Shown piece after piece: positions 17,102 to 51,973 of a stretch of 64,000 nt of DNA. The translations under genes and the position numbers were made by a program. Under the pieces are notes generated by a model. The model made no database searches. It saw only the letters and a list, made by a program, of their open reading frames with translations, and was not told where the DNA came from. The DNA lies in assembly GCA_003569365.1 (NCBI GenBank), contig BGOS01000027.1:1-64000 (forward strand), read 5' to 3'. This DNA is from Anaerolineaceae bacterium. GTDB taxonomy: Bacteria > Chloroflexota > Anaerolineae > Anaerolineales > UBA11657. Position 1 is the first letter of the stretch, and every line of letters starts with the position of its first letter.

Positions 17102-17533
17102 TTAATTGGGGATTGCAGAACGCGCCAGGCGGTCTACCCGTTCATTGCGCGCATCGCCATTGTGCCCGCGCACCCACAGCCATTGCACGGTATGGCGTTT
17201 TTCCGCGTCTAACAGCTGTTCCCACAGGTCGCGGTTGGCAACTGGTTTGCGCGCCTGCGTGCGCCAGTTTTTCTGCTGCCATTTTGCCAGCCATTCTGTA
17301 ATGCCGCGCTGCAAGTATTCTGAGTCCGTGCTGACGCAAACGGCGCTTGGCGCCGGCAGGGCGCGCAGCGCTTCAATTACCGCGGTCAGCTCCATGCGGT
17401 TGTTGGTGGTTTGGCGTTCGCCGCCGTATACCGTGCGGGCATTGCCATCGCCTTCAATCAGCGCGGCCCAGCCGCCCGGGCCGGGGTTCGGGTCGCAGGC
17501 GCCATCGCTATAAATTGTCACCGCGGGCAGCAT
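17102..17533 (-). CDS. rnhA: Ribonuclease HI
   Basis: A 143-residue RNase H1 that cuts RNA in RNA:DNA hybrids. The four catalytic acids fall at the positions known from E. coli: D10 (YSDGACDPNPG), E48 (NRMEL), D70 (STDSEY) and D134 (ERVDRLA), with the RGHNG histidine loop before it. ATG 17533 was chosen; the longer open frame would overlap the upstream gene. It is the last gene of the minus-strand run that includes the two helix-hairpin-helix membrane proteins, 19 bases after the stop of the first. Confidence 0.95.
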   Translation of the reverse strand: MLPAVTIYSDGACDPNPGPGGWAALIEGDGNARTVYGGERQTTNNRMELTAVIEALRALPAPSAVCVSTDSEYLQRGITEWLAKWQQKNWRTQARKPVANRDLWEQLLDAEKRHTVQWLWVRGHNGDARNERVDRLARSAIPN

Positions 17534-17552: not shown

Positions 17553-19685
17553 TTAGGGCAGCACAGTTGTTGCGGCCATGTTATCCCACGCCACAACCAG
17601 GTCCGTCGTTTCCACGGCGCGCGCGTAAACGCCAAAGTTGCCAAGCGGTGCGATGGAGAGATTGCGCACGATCATCTCGTCCACGCGGTTGCCGTTCACA
17701 TAGAGCGCGTAAGAGTCGCCCACCAGCAGCACGCCCACGCGGAATGTGCCAGAGCCGGCGGGCACTAATGGGGATTGCTTGGCGCGCAGGAGTTGATCCT
17801 CGCCCTTAACGCGCACAAAGAATCGGTAGCCGCCTTCGCAGGTGATGGTCACTGCGAAGAAGCTGTTTTTGTCAGATTGAAAGACAAGCCCATAGTTGTC
17901 TTTGGACCGGCAAGGGCCAACACGGATGTCGCTGTCATAATAAAAGTTGCGGCCGCTCACGGTGTATTTCGGGCCGGCTGACCAGTAGTGCGCACTTTTC
18001 TCAATAAACTTAACCTGCAGTGCACCATCCACATAACCGGACTCGGCAAAAGTACGCGGCCCCTTGCCCCATGTGAAGTTAGCTGGATCAAAGTTCTCGG
18101 TCCACAGGGATGCGCCCAGCGCAAACGGCAACTGTGGTGTTGCAAATGCTGTGGGCACTGCGGTGGGTAACGGTGTTGCAGTGGGCAGCGCCGTTGGCAC
18201 CAAAGTTGCGGTGGGAATTTCGGTTGGCGCAAGCGTGGCCGTGGGCAGTGGCAGCGCGGTTGCGGTGGGAATCTCAGTTGGCGCAAGCGTGGCCGCGGGC
18301 AGTGGCAGCGCAGTCGCAGGCGGTGCGTCGGTTGCGGGCGGCTGCACAACCGTGGCGGTGATGGCGGGCGCGGCAGCAACCGCCGTGGCAGGCGCCGCTG
18401 CAGTTGGCACACTTGTACTAGCGGCTTGTGTTGAGGCCGCGCTGGCGGGCTCGCGGGTGAAAAACCACGCTGCGCCCCCGCCCACAATTACCGCCAATAA
18501 AATAGTTGCGCCCGCAGCCCACGCCATGGGAAGGCCGCGTTTGCGCCGGCGTGTGCCCGGCAGCGGGCGCGTCTCGGAAACTGGCTCGTCGGCATTTACC
18601 ATGCGCACTGTGCGCGGTCCAGTCTGCGCTTGTGGTTCAACCAAAACAGCGGCTGTGTCAGCCACCTCTTCAGTCTCAAAAGTAGTGACCACCGGCTCCG
18701 CGCGTTTCAGCCGATTGCGCAGCGCCCATTCCGGCAGCGCACGCTTGTCGCTGGCAGCGCGCAGAAACTGCGGCAGCTCGCCATCGTCAGTTGCTGCCGG
18801 GTCCGGCTGCAGGCCGGGAGCCGCCGCGGTTACTGCAACGGGCGAAAGATAATCCGGAAAGTCGGGGCTCCTTTTCGTATCGGCAGCGGGCGTGGTTTCA
18901 GCTGCTGTTGTGGCAGGCTTTGCCGGCATTGCATCCAGCCACATCGGCATCAGCGGTATCTCCGGTGTCTCCCGCAGCGTATCCGCCGGCGTGCTGGCCG
19001 CAGCTGCCGCCGGCGCAACGGGCGCAGCAGCAGCCACAAAAACATAATCGAAGAGCAGCTGGTACTGCGCGCTTGTGATTGCGGACAGGCGGCGCAGGTC
19101 CGCCACAGAATCAAAAGGGCGCCCGTCCAAGATGGCAAGCGCCAGGTCAGCCGTCATGCCGGGCAGTTCCAGCAGTGCGTGCGCGCCGCCGGTGTTGAGG
19201 TCAAAGTGCGCCGTGTGCCCGGCAGGCGCTGCTTTTGCAACGCGTAAATAATCGCGCAGCTGGTGGTAAAGCTTTTCGCCAATGCCCGGCAGCGCAAGCA
19301 GCTCCGTCAGATTTTGAAATGGACGCGCCAGCAGAATCTGCTCGGCCAGTGCCAAACGCATTATGGGCAGGCGCATCAGCTCGGCCATGGTTGCAGAGTT
19401 CACATCCAGCCGGCCACTGCGGTCGGCTGCGCCGAAGTCCACTGCCGCCGGTGTTGCGGTGTGCCCCTCCGCCTCGGTTTCCGGCTGCTGCCCCACTTGC
19501 ACCAGCGGGCGCAATACATGAAAGAGCTTCTCGCCCACACCGGGCACGTTGCGCAGCGCACGCACACTGCGGTAGGGGCGCGCGCGCACAATGTCGGATG
19601 CCAACGCTTCACCCACGCGCGGCAGCCGCACCAGCTCGGCCATTGTCGCCGTGTTCAAGTCTATGCGCGGCCCGCGTGGCTTCAT
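17553..19685 (-). CDS. Membrane protein with three N-terminal ComEA-like HhH repeats, Thr/Pro stalk and external beta-sandwich
   Basis: A 710-residue protein. Three helix-hairpin-helix repeats of ComEA type occupy about 1-215 (DLNTATMAELVRLPRVG; PGVGEKLFHVLRPL; DVNSATMAELMRLP; PGIGEKLYHQLRDYL). A disordered acidic/Ala linker follows, then RRRKRG and one membrane span at about 384-404, a Thr/Pro-rich stalk to about 510, and a beta-rich C-terminal domain (520-710) that resembles a LamG/ConA-like sandwich. By the positive-inside rule the HhH part is cytoplasmic and the sandwich outside, the reverse of ComEA. ATG overlaps the stop of the upstream paralogue (ATGA), so the pair is translationally coupled. 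Function unknown. Confidence 0.8.
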   Translation of the reverse strand: MKPRGPRIDLNTATMAELVRLPRVGEALASDIVRARPYRSVRALRNVPGVGEKLFHVLRPLVQVGQQPETEAEGHTATPAAVDFGAADRSGRLDVNSATMAELMRLPIMRLALAEQILLARPFQNLTELLALPGIGEKLYHQLRDYLRVAKAAPAGHTAHFDLNTGGAHALLELPGMTADLALAILDGRPFDSVADLRRLSAITSAQYQLLFDYVFVAAAAPVAPAAAAASTPADTLRETPEIPLMPMWLDAMPAKPATTAAETTPAADTKRSPDFPDYLSPVAVTAAAPGLQPDPAATDDGELPQFLRAASDKRALPEWALRNRLKRAEPVVTTFETEEVADTAAVLVEPQAQTGPRTVRMVNADEPVSETRPLPGTRRRKRGLPMAWAAGATILLAVIVGGGAAWFFTREPASAASTQAASTSVPTAAAPATAVAAAPAITATVVQPPATDAPPATALPLPAATLAPTEIPTATALPLPTATLAPTEIPTATLVPTALPTATPLPTAVPTAFATPQLPFALGASLWTENFDPANFTWGKGPRTFAESGYVDGALQVKFIEKSAHYWSAGPKYTVSGRNFYYDSDIRVGPCRSKDNYGLVFQSDKNSFFAVTITCEGGYRFFVRVKGEDQLLRAKQSPLVPAGSGTFRVGVLLVGDSYALYVNGNRVDEMIVRNLSIAPLGNFGVYARAVETTDLVVAWDNMAATTVLP
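18211..18318 (-). repeat. Two 54-base tandem units in the stalk of the HhH membrane protein
   Basis: Units 18211-18264 and 18265-18318 are nearly identical and add 18 residues each to the Thr/Pro-rich stalk (ATALPLPTATLAPTEIPT pattern). The repeat is in frame and lies inside the coding region. Confidence 0.85.
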
Positions 19686-21334
19686 GATGCTTTAAGTTCC
19701 CACGCGCCTGCGTCATCAAAGTAAACCTGCAGCCCGGGGTTGCCTTCCGTCTTGGCAAAGAAGCCAAAGAAGCCCTCGGCTGTTGCCCCGTCGTTTATGC
19801 TGCCCACGCGTATGTCATTCACGTAAAACTTAAGATCTGCGCCCTGTGCATGCACGCCCAGCAAGTTTTGCTTGTTGCCGGTTAATACCGCGGCATTGGC
19901 GGTGAAGTCCGCCAGCACCGAATAGTCCCCGTTGTTGCGCCGCAACACGCGGTATTCGCCACTGCATGAAACGCCAAACAGATAGAGGTTGGCATCATCT
20001 TTATAGCGGAACACCAGGCCATAGTAATCGCCGGGGATGCAGTTGCGCGGCTCTGCCGTCCCCTGAAAATAAAAATTTGCGCTGCGAAACGCGTTCACGC
20101 TCCAGCTGATGGCTGGTGCTTGTGTCAGGCTGATCTGCAGCCGGTCCTGCGTAATCTCAATTATTGAAGTATTGTTTGTGCCGGTTTGGTTCCAAAAGTC
20201 GCCCGGTGCAAAGATCTCGGTGAACACCAGTTTGCCGATGTCGGCTTGGGAAAGCGGAGTTGAGTCGGCCGGCTGCACAACCACCAGTGCGGTGCTTGTG
20301 GGCGCCACGGTCACCGGCGTGGCCGGCGCGTTGGCGGTTTCTGCCGGCTTGACATCAACTGCCGGCGCGGGCGGGGGCGCAGCTGTTGGCGCGGCTGCCG
20401 GCAGCGCAGCAATTGGCACGGCTTCAATTGCCGGCCCAAATTGCAGCCAGTCCAAATAGTGCAGCCCAAGTATTGCAGCAAGCAGCAGCGCAGCAAACGC
20501 CCAGCCGGAGAAGAACACCGGCAGCCGGCGGCGGATCTCCCGCCGCACCTCCATCTGATGCTCGGCCAGCGAGAACTGCGGGTCCTGCACTTGCAGCGCG
20601 CCGGGCGCGCCGACTATGACCTCCGGGTAATCCTGCAGCGACACCCATTCTTCCTCTGTGAGCACATCCACAGCGGGCGCTTCCGGGCGCGCACCAGCGG
20701 GCGCAGCGGACGCAGCGGACGGGCTTTGTGCCGGGGGAGTTGAAGCGCGCAGCCGTTGCGCACGTTGCTGGGCGGCATGCAGTGCATCGAACACGGGATG
20801 CGCCACACGCTCGGGCGCTTGTGCTGCCGGCGCCGGCTGTACCTCTGGCGCGGGCGGTGGTGGGGCAGCTTGCGCAGCGCTTGCAGCGGCCGCCGGGCTT
20901 GGCAGCGCAATGTCTGGCGGAGGCGGTGGCACTATTTTGACGCGCGGCGCCACGCCTTCCATGCTCAGCAACGTGCGCTTTTGCAGCGCGATCAATACGG
21001 CGGCGTTGACCCCTCTCACGAGCGACACCTCGGAAAAATTTTCGAACGGGCGCTCCGCCACCAGGCGCTCGGCCAGCTTGTGGCCCACACCGGGCACAGC
21101 TTGCAACGCACGCAGGCCGCACGTGTTCAGGTTTACGCGTGCAGGCGGCACCACCTCCGCCACCGCGCGCAACTCGCGCAGCGTTTTGGCGCCAAACCCC
21201 GCTAGCATCTTAAGCTCAGCAAAGTCCCAAAACGGGCGTGCTTGCATAATTTGATCCGCTTTGCTCGCATCCAAGTCTGCTGCGCTCAGCAGCGTTGCAA
21301 GATCAGCGGTGTTTAAATCAACCAAGGGAGGCAT
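19682..21334 (-). CDS. Second HhH membrane protein with external beta-sandwich (paralogue)
   Basis: A 550-residue protein with the same architecture as the gene downstream. Two ComEA-like HhH units lie at about 1-125 (DLNTADLATLLSAADLD; NLNTCGLRALQAVPGVG), then a Pro/Ala-rich linker, the basic EVRREIRRR stop-transfer flank, one span at about 275-295, a Pro/Ala/Thr stalk and a beta-rich domain from about 362 to the end (GDYYGLVFRYKDDANLYLF). It is 38% shorter in its linker regions than a simple duplicate would be, so the two have diverged considerably. Four-base overlap with the next gene. The topology predicts HhH inside, sandwich outside. Function unknown. Confidence 0.8.
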   Translation of the reverse strand: MPPLVDLNTADLATLLSAADLDASKADQIMQARPFWDFAELKMLAGFGAKTLRELRAVAEVVPPARVNLNTCGLRALQAVPGVGHKLAERLVAERPFENFSEVSLVRGVNAAVLIALQKRTLLSMEGVAPRVKIVPPPPPDIALPSPAAAASAAQAAPPPPAPEVQPAPAAQAPERVAHPVFDALHAAQQRAQRLRASTPPAQSPSAASAAPAGARPEAPAVDVLTEEEWVSLQDYPEVIVGAPGALQVQDPQFSLAEHQMEVRREIRRRLPVFFSGWAFAALLLAAILGLHYLDWLQFGPAIEAVPIAALPAAAPTAAPPPAPAVDVKPAETANAPATPVTVAPTSTALVVVQPADSTPLSQADIGKLVFTEIFAPGDFWNQTGTNNTSIIEITQDRLQISLTQAPAISWSVNAFRSANFYFQGTAEPRNCIPGDYYGLVFRYKDDANLYLFGVSCSGEYRVLRRNNGDYSVLADFTANAAVLTGNKQNLLGVHAQGADLKFYVNDIRVGSINDGATAEGFFGFFAKTEGNPGLQVYFDDAGAWELKAS

Positions 21335-21374
21335 AAATTTTCAGAATTTTAGCACCCGCAACGGGCTGCAGGGC

Positions 21375-22637
21375 TTACGGGGTCACGCCGAGCCGGGTCA
21401 ATGCCTCGCGCGGCGGTTCATAGTTTGCGTTCAATTCGGCTGCTGCTTTGTAATCGCTGATCGCATCCTTCTGGTTGGCCAGCGCCTCGTTGGCGCGCCC
21501 GCGCCAAAAAAACGCCTCCTCGGAGCTTTGGTTTGTGCCCAGCGCAAAATCCGCCAGCTGAATCACCTCATTGAATTCTTGCGCCGCAAAATATACGGCG
21601 TAGATTTCCGGCTGGTACCACAGCATGCGAAAGGGAATGCCCAATGTGCGCGCCTGGTCAAAACTATTGCGCGCGCCACGGATATCGCCAACTGCATTCA
21701 AGTTGATGCCAAGATTGTAGTACGTCAGGGCCTGCGCGGTGCCGTCAGTCTGCCGGATTTCTTTCAGGGCGCGCTGCGCCGCGCGGCTGAACGCAATCTC
21801 GGTGTCCGCCTCCGCACCCAGCAGCGCCAGCAGCTCTGCATGGCGGGTGGCCGGCACCACCATCAAGTACGCGTAATTAAACGGGCGCCAGATGTTCAGC
21901 AGTTGTGCATCGGTGATGGGCACATTCGGCCCCTGGTATGTGTCTTGCGTGATGAAGCGCTGCGCGGCAGTGTCGTAGCCAATCAGCAGCGCGTAATGGC
22001 CGGCCCAGCCTTCCTGGCGCAGCTCCAGATCGCGCTCAAAAATTACCGGGAAGCCGGCTGCCAGCAGCCGGCGCACACCGTCAAGCGTGCCGTTGGGGCG
22101 CTGCTCGGCCGCGAAACCAATGCTCTGCGCAAACGCTGCCATCTCAGCAACGGACACATTGCGGTCAAGCCGGTTTGGTTTAAGGGCGGCGGCCGTGTTG
22201 GCTTGCGTGCCGTTCCAGCCCCAAAAATTTAACAGCATGGCAAGCGTGGCGGGGCCGCAGTTGTTCCAGTGCTGCCAGACATGCGTTGTGCCGGAGATCA
22301 TTGCGCGGGGTGGCAGTGGCGCTTGCACGATTGGTGTGGGGAAGGGCTGCAGTTTTCCGCCGGGCTCCACCTCCACAACTTTTCCCGTTGCGGGATCAGC
22401 CGCTGCAGCTGGCTCGGGCGCGGTGCCTGCAGGCCGGGCTGCGGGCAGCGGCACGGTTTGCTGCGGCGGGCTGAACAAATTCTGCACGCGCACCCGCAGC
22501 GTCTCCACGCGCCAATACAGATGTTCGTTTACAAAAGGAATTTGATAAGCGGCCAGCAACAACAGCAAACTCAGCAGCAGCCACAATGCGGACAAAACCA
22601 GCCGCATGCTTCGCGGCCGGGCAGAGGCGCTATTCAT
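21375..22637 (-). CDS. Membrane-anchored C39-like cysteine peptidase with TPR repeats
   Basis: A 420-residue protein. An N-terminal span lies at about 10-31, then a coiled and Pro/Ala-rich linker, and a Peptidase_C39_2 fold at about 110-260 with NNCGPATLAM (Cys near 127) and GHYALLIGYD (His near 214). TPR-like helical repeats follow to the end (YYNLGINLNAVGDIRGARNS; FFWRGRANEALANQKDAI). C39-like proteases cut leader peptides at Gly-Gly sites or act on the cell surface. The stop is 41 bases before the HhH gene start, so it is probably in the same operon and could process or dock to the exposed beta-sandwich domains. That link is inference. Confidence 0.82.
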   Translation of the reverse strand: MNSASARPRSMRLVLSALWLLLSLLLLLAAYQIPFVNEHLYWRVETLRVRVQNLFSPPQQTVPLPAARPAGTAPEPAAAADPATGKVVEVEPGGKLQPFPTPIVQAPLPPRAMISGTTHVWQHWNNCGPATLAMLLNFWGWNGTQANTAAALKPNRLDRNVSVAEMAAFAQSIGFAAEQRPNGTLDGVRRLLAAGFPVIFERDLELRQEGWAGHYALLIGYDTAAQRFITQDTYQGPNVPITDAQLLNIWRPFNYAYLMVVPATRHAELLALLGAEADTEIAFSRAAQRALKEIRQTDGTAQALTYYNLGINLNAVGDIRGARNSFDQARTLGIPFRMLWYQPEIYAVYFAAQEFNEVIQLADFALGTNQSSEEAFFWRGRANEALANQKDAISDYKAAAELNANYEPPREALTRLGVTP

Positions 22638-22658: not shown

Positions 22659-23009
22659 TTAGAACTGAAAGTGGTCCCGCAGCGGGACGCGCCGGCATGA
22701 GTAATTGGAGACGAACTCCTGCAGTTTTTCTTCAAGCTCGGAAAACTCCTCGCTTTGCATTACACGGTCGGCGGTGTCCCGGTTTTCAGCCACAAACGCA
22801 ACCAGGCGGTTGGGATATTCGCCCCAGCCGGTGTGCCATGCTTCCACCATGGATAGCCCCAGCTTCTCAAGATCCGGCACCATCTTCTTGAGCATGTACT
22901 TATAGTACTCACTGGAAGACTCCGGGTTAATGTCATAGTTCATTAGAACTTTTACATAGCCCTGCAAGTGGTCCATTGGGCGCCCGTTTCCGCCACCACG
23001 CGAATTCAT
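22659..23009 (-). CDS. Small protein of unknown function, possible dimeric alpha/beta barrel
   Basis: A 116-residue protein. The alternation of VKVLMNYDINPES, a helix with Lys/Glu, WHTGWGEYPNRLVAFVAEN and a long C-terminal helix is like the ferredoxin-like dimeric barrels (NIPSNAP/ABM type), but I do not recognise a named family. ATG 23009 was chosen because a TATACT box lies 6 bases before it, the distance of a leaderless start; a second ATG lies at codon 12. It heads the minus-strand run of the C39 and HhH genes, 21 bases upstream of the C39 start. Confidence 0.65.
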   Translation of the reverse strand: MNSRGGGNGRPMDHLQGYVKVLMNYDINPESSSEYYKYMLKKMVPDLEKLGLSMVEAWHTGWGEYPNRLVAFVAENRDTADRVMQSEEFSELEEKLQEFVSNYSCRRVPLRDHFQF

Positions 23010-50272: not shown

Positions 50273-51268
50273 TTACGAAGCGGGGGTTGGGGAGGCAGTG
50301 GGCAATGGTTCTGCAAGATAGAGGGCGAAGTCCCGCAGGGTCTCTTGGCCCGTGACACGCACGCGCCCCCACTTGTACGCATCTTTGAGTTGATGGTCAA
50401 TTGCGAATCTCGTAGTGACCGCGCCCCAATAGCCGATCTCTTTCAGCAAGCCAATCACCTCTGCATCGTACTCGCCCCCGGGGTAGCAAAAGTAACGCGG
50501 CTGATAACCCACGTGCGCGCGAATTGTTTCCATTGAGCCAAGTACTTGATAAAGAATGTACTTGTGCGGTTGCCCCGGCAGTTCCACGTGCGATTTTGTG
50601 TGTGGCTCAATCTTCCAGCCCGCCCGCGCCAGCTCTTCGGCCATTTGCCAGTTGATGTAGTCCGGCTGCTGCTTGTCAATCAGCTCGGTGGGCACAAAGA
50701 GCGTGCCGGTGTAGCCATGCGCACGCATCACTGGATATGCAAAATCGTACACGCCGCGATAACCATCATCAAAGCTAATCACGATGGGCTTGTCCGGCAG
50801 CGGCTGGCCGAGCGCGAGGTGATTTTGCATGTCGTACAGGCTTATGGATTCAAAGCCGCGTTCGCGCAGCCAGTCCATTTGAATTTGGAAGTCTTGTGGA
50901 ATCACCGTCAGCCCGGCCCGCAGCAGGCCGCTTTTGGCCGGGAGCGGCTCTACGCGGTGGTACATGAGGATGGGGACACGCACAATGCGTTTGCGCGCGG
51001 CGGCGTCCGGAGTTGGCCATGGGCTGGCGGTTAATGTTGCGGTGGGCGTTGCTGTTGGCGAGGCGGTGGGGGTAGCTGTTGAGGGTGGGGTATGGGTGGG
51101 TGTGGCGGTGGGAGTTGCAGAAGGAGCTGCAATGTTTGTACGCACTTCAGTGGCCATAACGGCCGCTGCGGTGGGAGCGGCGGCGGATGTGATGCCGCAA
51201 GCACTGCACAGCAGTGCAGCGCTGCACACAGCCAGCAACTGGCGCGGCGCCAGCCGGATCGGAAACAT
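50273..51268 (-). CDS. Polysaccharide deacetylase lipoprotein
   Basis: A 331-residue predicted lipoprotein. The lipobox LLCSACG follows the signal, then a Thr/Pro/Ala-rich stalk (SATPTATPTHTPPSTAT) and an NodB-like deacetylase domain: ILMYHRV, SFDDGYRGVYDFA (metal Asp), TKSHVELPG and YPGGEYDAE. Such enzymes remove acetyl groups from cell-surface polysaccharides or peptidoglycan. ATG 51268 was chosen for its lipoprotein start; ATG 51283 is an alternative. It is divergent from the secreted beta-sandwich gene. Confidence 0.87.
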   Translation of the reverse strand: MFPIRLAPRQLLAVCSAALLCSACGITSAAAPTAAAVMATEVRTNIAAPSATPTATPTHTPPSTATPTASPTATPTATLTASPWPTPDAAARKRIVRVPILMYHRVEPLPAKSGLLRAGLTVIPQDFQIQMDWLRERGFESISLYDMQNHLALGQPLPDKPIVISFDDGYRGVYDFAYPVMRAHGYTGTLFVPTELIDKQQPDYINWQMAEELARAGWKIEPHTKSHVELPGQPHKYILYQVLGSMETIRAHVGYQPRYFCYPGGEYDAEVIGLLKEIGYWGAVTTRFAIDHQLKDAYKWGRVRVTGQETLRDFALYLAEPLPTASPTPAS

Positions 51269-51304
51269 TACAAACGCAAGCATGCGATGGCTAGAATACT
51301 GGAG

Positions 51305-51973
51305 ATGCGTACAGCTCAAACACCGCGCTGGATCCGAAGGGTCGTGGGCACTGGTTTTGCAGCATTGCTAATTTTAATTGCCGGCACTGCGGCTGCGCTG
51401 CGCGCCGGCGCTGCGGACGAGCGCGGATTGGGCGCGCCGGTTTGGCGGACGGATTTCGCGCCGGACCGCGCAAGCGACTGGCAGATTATCGCTGACGCCA
51501 GCGCCACGCCGGACTTTGGCGCCAGCGGCTTAGTGCTGGCAATGCCCAACGCTGATGCGCACGCAGTGTTGTTGCGCGCGGGCGCCGCCGGCGCCTGGGC
51601 ACTGGCGGTGGATGCTGCGCAATCGGCGGGTGCGCCGGGCGCAATGCATGGCGTTGCATTCAATTGCGTTTCTAAAGCGGAATGCAGTTTCGTCTTGCTA
51701 AACAATAATGGCTACGTGCAAGTGTTTCGTGAGGCAGGCAGTGAGCGCACGGTTTGGTATGAGCTGCAGCAGTGGCCGCATGTGCTCCGCGGTGCTGCGG
51801 CCAACCGCGTGCAGCTGGCTGGCAACGCGGAGGCCGTGGAGGTGCGCGTGAACAATGAACTGTTGTTGCGCGTACCCGCACGAACGGGCGGTATGGTGGG
51901 TGTGGCGGCGCGCGCGAGTGCAGCCAGCCAGCAGGTTACATTTACCTTTGCAGAGCTACGTGCAGGCCCCTAA
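51305..51973 (+). CDS. Secreted/membrane-anchored beta-sandwich protein
   Basis: A 222-residue protein with a basic N-terminus and one span at about 14-33, then a beta-rich domain from about 42 (APVWRTDFAPDRASDWQII, VAFNCVSKAECSFVLLNNNGY, EVRVNNELLLRV). The domain resembles the external sandwich of the two HhH membrane proteins at 17.5-21.3 kb, but here it stands alone without HhH or stalk. The start ATG 51305 is supported by a TAGAAT box ending 7 bases upstream, again a leaderless distance. The function is unknown. Confidence 0.72.
   Translation: MRTAQTPRWIRRVVGTGFAALLILIAGTAAALRAGAADERGLGAPVWRTDFAPDRASDWQIIADASATPDFGASGLVLAMPNADAHAVLLRAGAAGAWALAVDAAQSAGAPGAMHGVAFNCVSKAECSFVLLNNNGYVQVFREAGSERTVWYELQQWPHVLRGAAANRVQLAGNAEAVEVRVNNELLLRVPARTGGMVGVAARASAASQQVTFTFAELRAGP

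Follow-up and report, generated by a model that had tools for sequence, protein, structure and literature searches.

A three-gene locus of an Anaerolineales lake bacterium encodes a C39-like peptidase and two predicted one-pass membrane proteins with HhH and CBM66-like domains

Introduction

A lake bacterium of the order Anaerolineales carries three adjoining genes on the minus strand, in the order C39/TPR peptidase, paralogue A and paralogue B, followed by the gene for RNase HI. Each paralogue joins ComEA-type HhH units to a single TM span, a stalk and a CBM66-like sandwich. By computation, the peptidases adjoining such genes form one clade, and in related genomes the peptidase and the sandwich of A are absent together. 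The anatomy of the set is firm. What we infer is its function, namely the ligand, the cleavage of A, the binding of DNA or of a partner, and the direction of signalling. The reading that we favour, tentatively and at somewhat less than an even chance, is that the one-pass proteins serve as glycan receptors or tethers, that HhH provides their cytoplasmic output and that the peptidase acts on the ectodomain of A.

The window, i.e. the whole stretch of 64,000 nucleotides that was analysed, belongs to contig C27 of a 2.63-Mb genome (95.5% complete). Two public MAGs belong to the same genus, CANNEJ01 (ZE-17mar17-73) and QWRL01 (ZSMay80m-chloro-G1). Chloroflexi MAGs from freshwater have been described (PMC6169038).

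Results

Organization of the locus

The original prediction had placed two paralogues and a peptidase gene at this position, and all three ORFs were recovered there, on the minus strand (Table 1). The peptidase gene and A are separated by 40 nt, and A and B overlap by 4 nt. A single hydrophobic span, preceded by basic residues on its N-side, and a stalk rich in Pro, Thr and Ala are present in each paralogue. Against the sister species G002, in which the genes are 77-88% identical, the dN/dS values of the peptidase, A and B were 0.13, 0.19 and 0.22, respectively, which shows that the three genes are real. In the same comparison, the linker and stalk were less constrained than HhH and sandwich.

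Four neighbouring genes of the window were scanned with Pfam; they encode the NIPSNAP-like protein, RNase HI, an HU-like protein and an acetyltransferase. The own genus and one genome of a sister genus retain the first of these, the 116-aa protein upstream of the peptidase, which is a possible operon member. RNase HI is co-directional with B here and does not adjoin the HhH pair in the sister genera. Elsewhere in the window, a 293-aa ORF (51092-51973, plus strand) gave a marginal sandwich match with a very long tree branch and no Pfam family; the match is possibly due to chance.

Table 1. Coordinates of the genes and predicted domains in the window
Feature	Position	Strand	Basis
RNase HI, start 19 nt past B	17102..17533	-	Pfam
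Paralogue B, HhH3-TM-Thr/Pro stalk-sandwich, 710 aa	17553..19685	-	ORF, Pfam, HMM
B: CBM66-like jelly-roll, residues 527-707	17565..18107	-	HMM match; shares its domain family with the sandwich of A
B: Thr/Pro/Ala-rich stalk, residues 403-526	18108..18479	-	Sequence
B: TM, residues 384-402, TRRRKRG directly before	18480..18536	-	HMM/hydropathy scan, sequence
B: three HhH units, residues 7-217, net charges +5, +1 and -4	19035..19667	-	HMM matches, charge count
Paralogue A, HhH2-TM-stalk-sandwich, 550 aa	19682..21334	-	ORF, Pfam, HMM, AlphaFold
A: CBM66-like jelly-roll, residues 366-546, predicted extracytoplasmic	19697..20239	-	Fold match, profile, Cys alignment
A: TM, residues 273-291, EVRREIRRR directly before	20462..20518	-	Hydropathy, AlphaFold, flank counts
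A: two ComEA-type HhH units, residues 5-121, predicted cytoplasmic	20972..21322	-	HMM matches, solved relatives
C39-like (Peptidase_C39_2) cysteine peptidase, N-terminal membrane anchor, C-terminal TPRs, 420 aa	21375..22637	-	Pfam PF13529, AlphaFold, fold search
C39-like catalytic domain	21936..22274	-	Pfam stretch 122-234, alignment
Peptidase TM anchor, residues 13-31; K/R on the N-side, catalytic part predicted outside	22545..22601	-	Hydropathy, flank counts
116-aa protein lying 21 nt upstream of the peptidase gene; NIPSNAP match at no better than E 0.12	22659..23009	-	Pfam

Characteristics of the peptidase

The peptidase matched Pfam Peptidase_C39_2 with an E-value of 1.2e-12 (49.1 bits against a cut-off of 24), and its AlphaFold model had a pTM of 0.83. 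The top solved fold was PeiR (8z4h), a pseudomurein endoisopeptidase, followed by the C39 domain of PCAT (6mpz). As assigned from the alignment, Cys127, His214 and Asp232 were invariant in 30 relatives and Gln122 was kept in at least 90% of them, which strongly suggests that the catalytic residues are intact.

Resemblance to the PCAT leader peptidase is what speaks for peptide export with leader processing of the C39 exporter kind, a possibility raised in the original prediction. In ABC exporters, the C39 domain that cleaves the leader is located in the cytoplasm, whereas the domain of the present peptidase is predicted to lie outside and its best fold match is the endoisopeptidase. Moreover, no ABC exporter was found within the peptidase protein (Pfam), in the cluster or among the own-genus genes called around the peptidase. 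Since the cluster lacks a transporter and the C39 domain is predicted on the opposite side of the membrane, the export reading was abandoned as extremely improbable.

The outer sandwich and the membrane topology

The best solved fold for the sandwich of A was CBM66 of the Bacillus subtilis levanase (4azz), with a Z score of 21.3; 159 of 165 residues were superposed with an rmsd of 2.2 A, at 21% identity. The same likeness was obtained by Foldseek (E 5e-11) and by profile comparison (E 1.3e-12). All 101 genomes of the order that were searched contained matches to A, mainly via the sandwich and mainly in lipoproteins; a loose lipobox pattern was present in 40 of the 73 sandwich-related ORFs listed, a listing that includes duplicates. 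In two loci of the same order (L133 and L141), an N-terminal Ser/Thr kinase is followed by a TM and the same sandwich.

The positions of Cys432 and Cys457 (A numbering) are Cys in each of 41 aligned sandwich proteins, as expected for a disulphide, which supports an outside location of the sandwich. The K/R residues flanking the TM in 22 proteins numbered about 101 on the N-side against 14 on the C-side, with the TM of B assigned by hand. Taken with the lipoprotein and kinase-TM relatives, these features strongly suggest an N-in topology with HhH cytoplasmic and the sandwich extracytoplasmic. The orientation originally proposed, HhH inside and the sandwich outside, is therefore upheld by inference.

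Characteristics of the HhH units

Pfam HHH_3 (PF12836) was matched by two units of A (E 3.8e-17) and three units of B (E 6.5e-33). The nearest solved sequences were the ComEA-related 2duy (E 2.6e-21), EEPD1 (9yi2) and ComEA (8dss, E 4e-13). The N-terminal parts of A and B contained only HhH-type families in Pfam, and no anti-sigma domain was among them. Structure prediction, which the original prediction had proposed as a check, gave a confident HhH array and a confident sandwich for A from a 50-row alignment: pLDDT was about 93 for the former, about 96 for the latter and up to 94 in the TM; the linkers were disordered. A fold search with A returned sandwich matches, and the HhH part was therefore judged from sequence alone.

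HhH modules serve as DNA grips in uptake and repair, and the HhH parts of A and B are possible DNA binders. The net charges of the units span -6 to +6. B is more basic than A, and the first unit of B is its most basic (net +5). The HhH part of A is approximately neutral and several hairpins lack the canonical G-h-G, so HhH may be a protein-protein module. This would fit another explanation, in which HhH would mediate contacts between proteins, as it does in PsbU, and A, B and the peptidase would form an envelope structural or assembly complex that makes no contact with DNA. PsbU and GspK models match HhH, the net charge is zero or below in 19 of 45 sandwich-type units among those listed, and the tandem A-B order is retained in two families. 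However, the canonical G-h-G hairpin is still kept in 37 of 46 HhH units, and ComEA proteins are among the closest solved relatives by sequence. We regard this explanation as rather unlikely.

The ComEA-type units also raise the question of DNA uptake. A and B reached only 23.6 and 51.4 bits against the TIGR01259 ComEA cut-off of 152.35, and the own genome has an ordinary ComEA elsewhere (C7:18175-18360; N-terminal TM, SLBB-like part and C-terminal HhH) as well as a ComEC (C8:53003). Seven genomes of sister genera keep the HhH genes, and none of them has a ComEC match over the cut-off, although several of these genomes are incomplete; a function shared with uptake is accordingly improbable. 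In addition, the HhH units of A and B would be on the wrong side of the membrane for uptake. That the pair is a ComEA variant of an uptake apparatus is thus very unlikely. The label 'inside-out ComEA' serves as a description and no more, given the ordinary ComEA elsewhere in the genome.

Association of the peptidase with the HhH genes

The HhH-TM-sandwich order recurs in other families. In G056, the peptidase and an HhH-TM gene overlap by 4 nt, and the contig stops early in the sandwich. Upstream of two tandem HhH-TM-sandwich genes in G025 lie the final 83 codons of a peptidase of this kind; the remaining part ends on another contig beside an unrelated sequence that resembles restriction-modification genes by eye. 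Insertion of this restriction-modification-like element probably interrupted the G025 peptidase gene (L106:31-2922 and L113:1-1150). When 131 C39 rows were placed in a tree, the HhH-linked C39s of the three families grouped in a single clade (SH-aLRT 96). Of its six rows, L190 is a duplicate of the G025 gene, and the association covers five genomes of three families, with one gene broken.

C39 peptidases in general do not mark the system. The family was found in 93 of 101 genomes of the order, mostly distant from HhH, and an HhH-TM gene adjoined the peptidase only in the own genus and at L155 among 80 C39 loci scanned; C39 as a general marker was therefore rejected.

In the sister genera g2 and g3, the HhH pair occurs in the same surroundings (sdhB-like gene and aminotransferase) with no adjoining peptidase. 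The g3 genomes lacked any C39 match; g2 has C39s, and these were placed outside the HhH-linked clade. Altogether, seven sister genomes retain the HhH genes with no peptidase beside them (G005 has only B, at a contig end). The A proteins of g2 and g3 keep HhH and the juxtamembrane EIRRR and end 6-13 residues past the TM in all six complete copies. In the sandwich tree, A of the own genus grouped with that of G025 (91/86), and the single genes of G019 and G066, which are devoid of the peptidase, joined the B-side gene of G025 (100/98). All HhH-bearing sandwiches fell into one group at a weak support of 58/69.

Since the sandwich of A is absent where the peptidase is missing and the single genes are B-like, peptidase and A-type sandwich co-vary. 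Their co-variation, seen in five genomes with the peptidase, is the strongest functional clue. The proposed linkage thus stands in part: the peptidase is a conserved partner in one C39 clade and three families, and it is absent beside the pair in the seven sister genomes.

Wider occurrence of HhH-TM proteins

HhH searches of 400 genomes of the order showed that proteins with N-terminal HhH, an acidic linker, one TM and a coiled coil are common. In an operon of two or three genes, such a gene comes first, and the one or two others encode TM-coiled-coil proteins of no clear Pfam family; the arrangement occurs at L263-L300 and elsewhere, for instance at L284:1815-6071. The operon is sometimes found beside recN, a rhomboid, an SDH-type protease or Hsp20; recN adjoins the HhH-TM-coiled-coil genes in five loci of one family. 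N-terminal HhH with one TM is therefore not special to the present locus, and the outer part is usually a coiled coil in the order. When 400 genomes of the phylum were searched for HhH-TM-sandwich proteins, only the window's own genome aligned over both parts, and the other sandwich matches lacked HhH. Among 32 genomes checked, the coiled-coil partner was present in none of 15 sandwich-type genomes and in 9 of 17 others. This distribution is suggestive, yet confounded by phylogeny, and the idea that the A/B pair replaces the coiled-coil operon was set aside.

Several further HhH genes were observed. A third one in the own genome (L036:4701-6640; G000 contig C3, about 94.7 kb) encodes HhH2 and an acidic linker and is followed by an overlapping out-of-frame ORF with a TM, a Pro/Thr stalk and a Cys-rich outer part; the arrangement may reflect two genes, a frameshift or a misassembly. 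L307 (G000 contig C3, about 254.2 kb) encodes a secreted-looking protein with a part that is HNH nuclease-like by eye and a C-terminal HhH. At L277:1786-3666, L278:2073-3632 and L296:3532-5199, proteins that are S1-repeat-like by eye have a C-terminal HhH and lie beside a long subtilase-like gene. A tail-anchored form is encoded at L302:3325-3750, an HhH protein of 141 aa whose TM lies at the extreme C-terminus.

The core common to all variants is HhH plus TM, which is compatible with a static tether. HhH would then grip chromosomal DNA non-specifically, the sandwich would grip a cell-wall or surface glycan, and the nucleoid would be pinned to the envelope by a link that the peptidase trims or releases, with no signal passing. 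The net charge of +5 in the first HhH unit of B and the order-wide coiled-coil genes beside recN are also in favour. By contrast, Ser/Thr kinases carry the same sandwich outside, an indication of sensing, and the HhH units of A and of the coiled-coil proteins are neutral to acidic on average. A purely static link is a rather unlikely alternative.

Discussion

In the receptor or tether that we favour, the three genes would form one envelope system. Outside, the stalked CBM66-like jelly-roll of A and B would bind a glycan or a sugar-bearing ligand; inside, the ComEA-type (HhH)2 modules would contact DNA or a protein partner associated with nucleic acid. The mode of action of A and B would resemble that of RsgI and other one-pass glycan receptors, or that of the order's Ser/Thr kinases with the same sandwich, except that the output would be HhH. 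The membrane-anchored, extracytoplasmic C39-like peptidase may act on, or jointly with, the ectodomain of A, and the ligand state or clipping would be relayed across the membrane to alter what the HhH array holds there. B would be the better candidate for DNA contact than A, because its first HhH unit is the most basic and because B survives without the peptidase. Among the adjoining genes, neither a sigma factor nor any other obvious partner for the output was recognised.

A bolder version, which we consider doubtful, is that the outer glycan-binding domain, under the control of the surface C39 peptidase, directly governs chromosomal DNA held by HhH at the membrane. Glycan sensing would then be wired to the nucleoid with no kinase, sigma factor or second messenger, and the order-wide HhH-TM-coiled-coil operon would be the commoner sister form.

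If the proposal is true, one-pass envelope proteins of Chloroflexota have HhH for their inner half, combined with an outer half that can be exchanged: a carbohydrate-binding sandwich, a coiled coil or none. Tethering of the membrane to DNA or to a partner would become directly testable in a large uncultured group, and the peptidase-receptor pair, with its clear co-variation signature, would be testable in vitro.

In the open-access literature, we found no described membrane protein with cytoplasmic HhH and no such combination with a peptidase partner, in agreement with the original view that no system like this set is known. Within that literature, the parts are already known, and what is new is their combination together with the peptidase partner.

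RsgI of Clostridium thermocellum has an N-in output domain, one TM and an outer carbohydrate-binding sensor, and proteolysis is part of its signalling (PMC12203970). By fold and probable topology, A and B share the N-in orientation, the single TM and a carbohydrate-binding-type outer domain. Unlike RsgI, whose output is an anti-sigma domain, they have HhH as the output; RsgI has an autocleaving periplasmic domain, whereas the present locus encodes a separate C39 peptidase. No SigI/sigma-I gene was among the four neighbouring window genes scanned with Pfam. ComEA (PMC9747964; 8dss, 2duy) has (HhH)2 units of the HHH_3 family, as do A and B. However, its HhH lies outside, while that of A and B is probably inside, is joined to an unrelated outer domain and does not need ComEC.

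PeiR and the PCAT C39 leader peptidases share the papain-like C39 fold and Cys-His-Asp with the present peptidase, which differs in being anchored in the membrane with its catalytic part predicted outside, in its TPRs and in having no exporter. The CBM66 of the B. subtilis levanase (4azz, 4b1l), a family characterised by binding of terminal fructose, resembles A in a jelly-roll that covers the whole sandwich domain, but the sandwich of A is only about 21% identical, has an invariant Cys pair and is not attached to a glycosidase. The Ser/Thr kinase-TM-sandwich proteins of L133 and L141 share the outer sandwich and the predicted N-in topology with A and B, and they differ in having a kinase inside where A and B have HhH.
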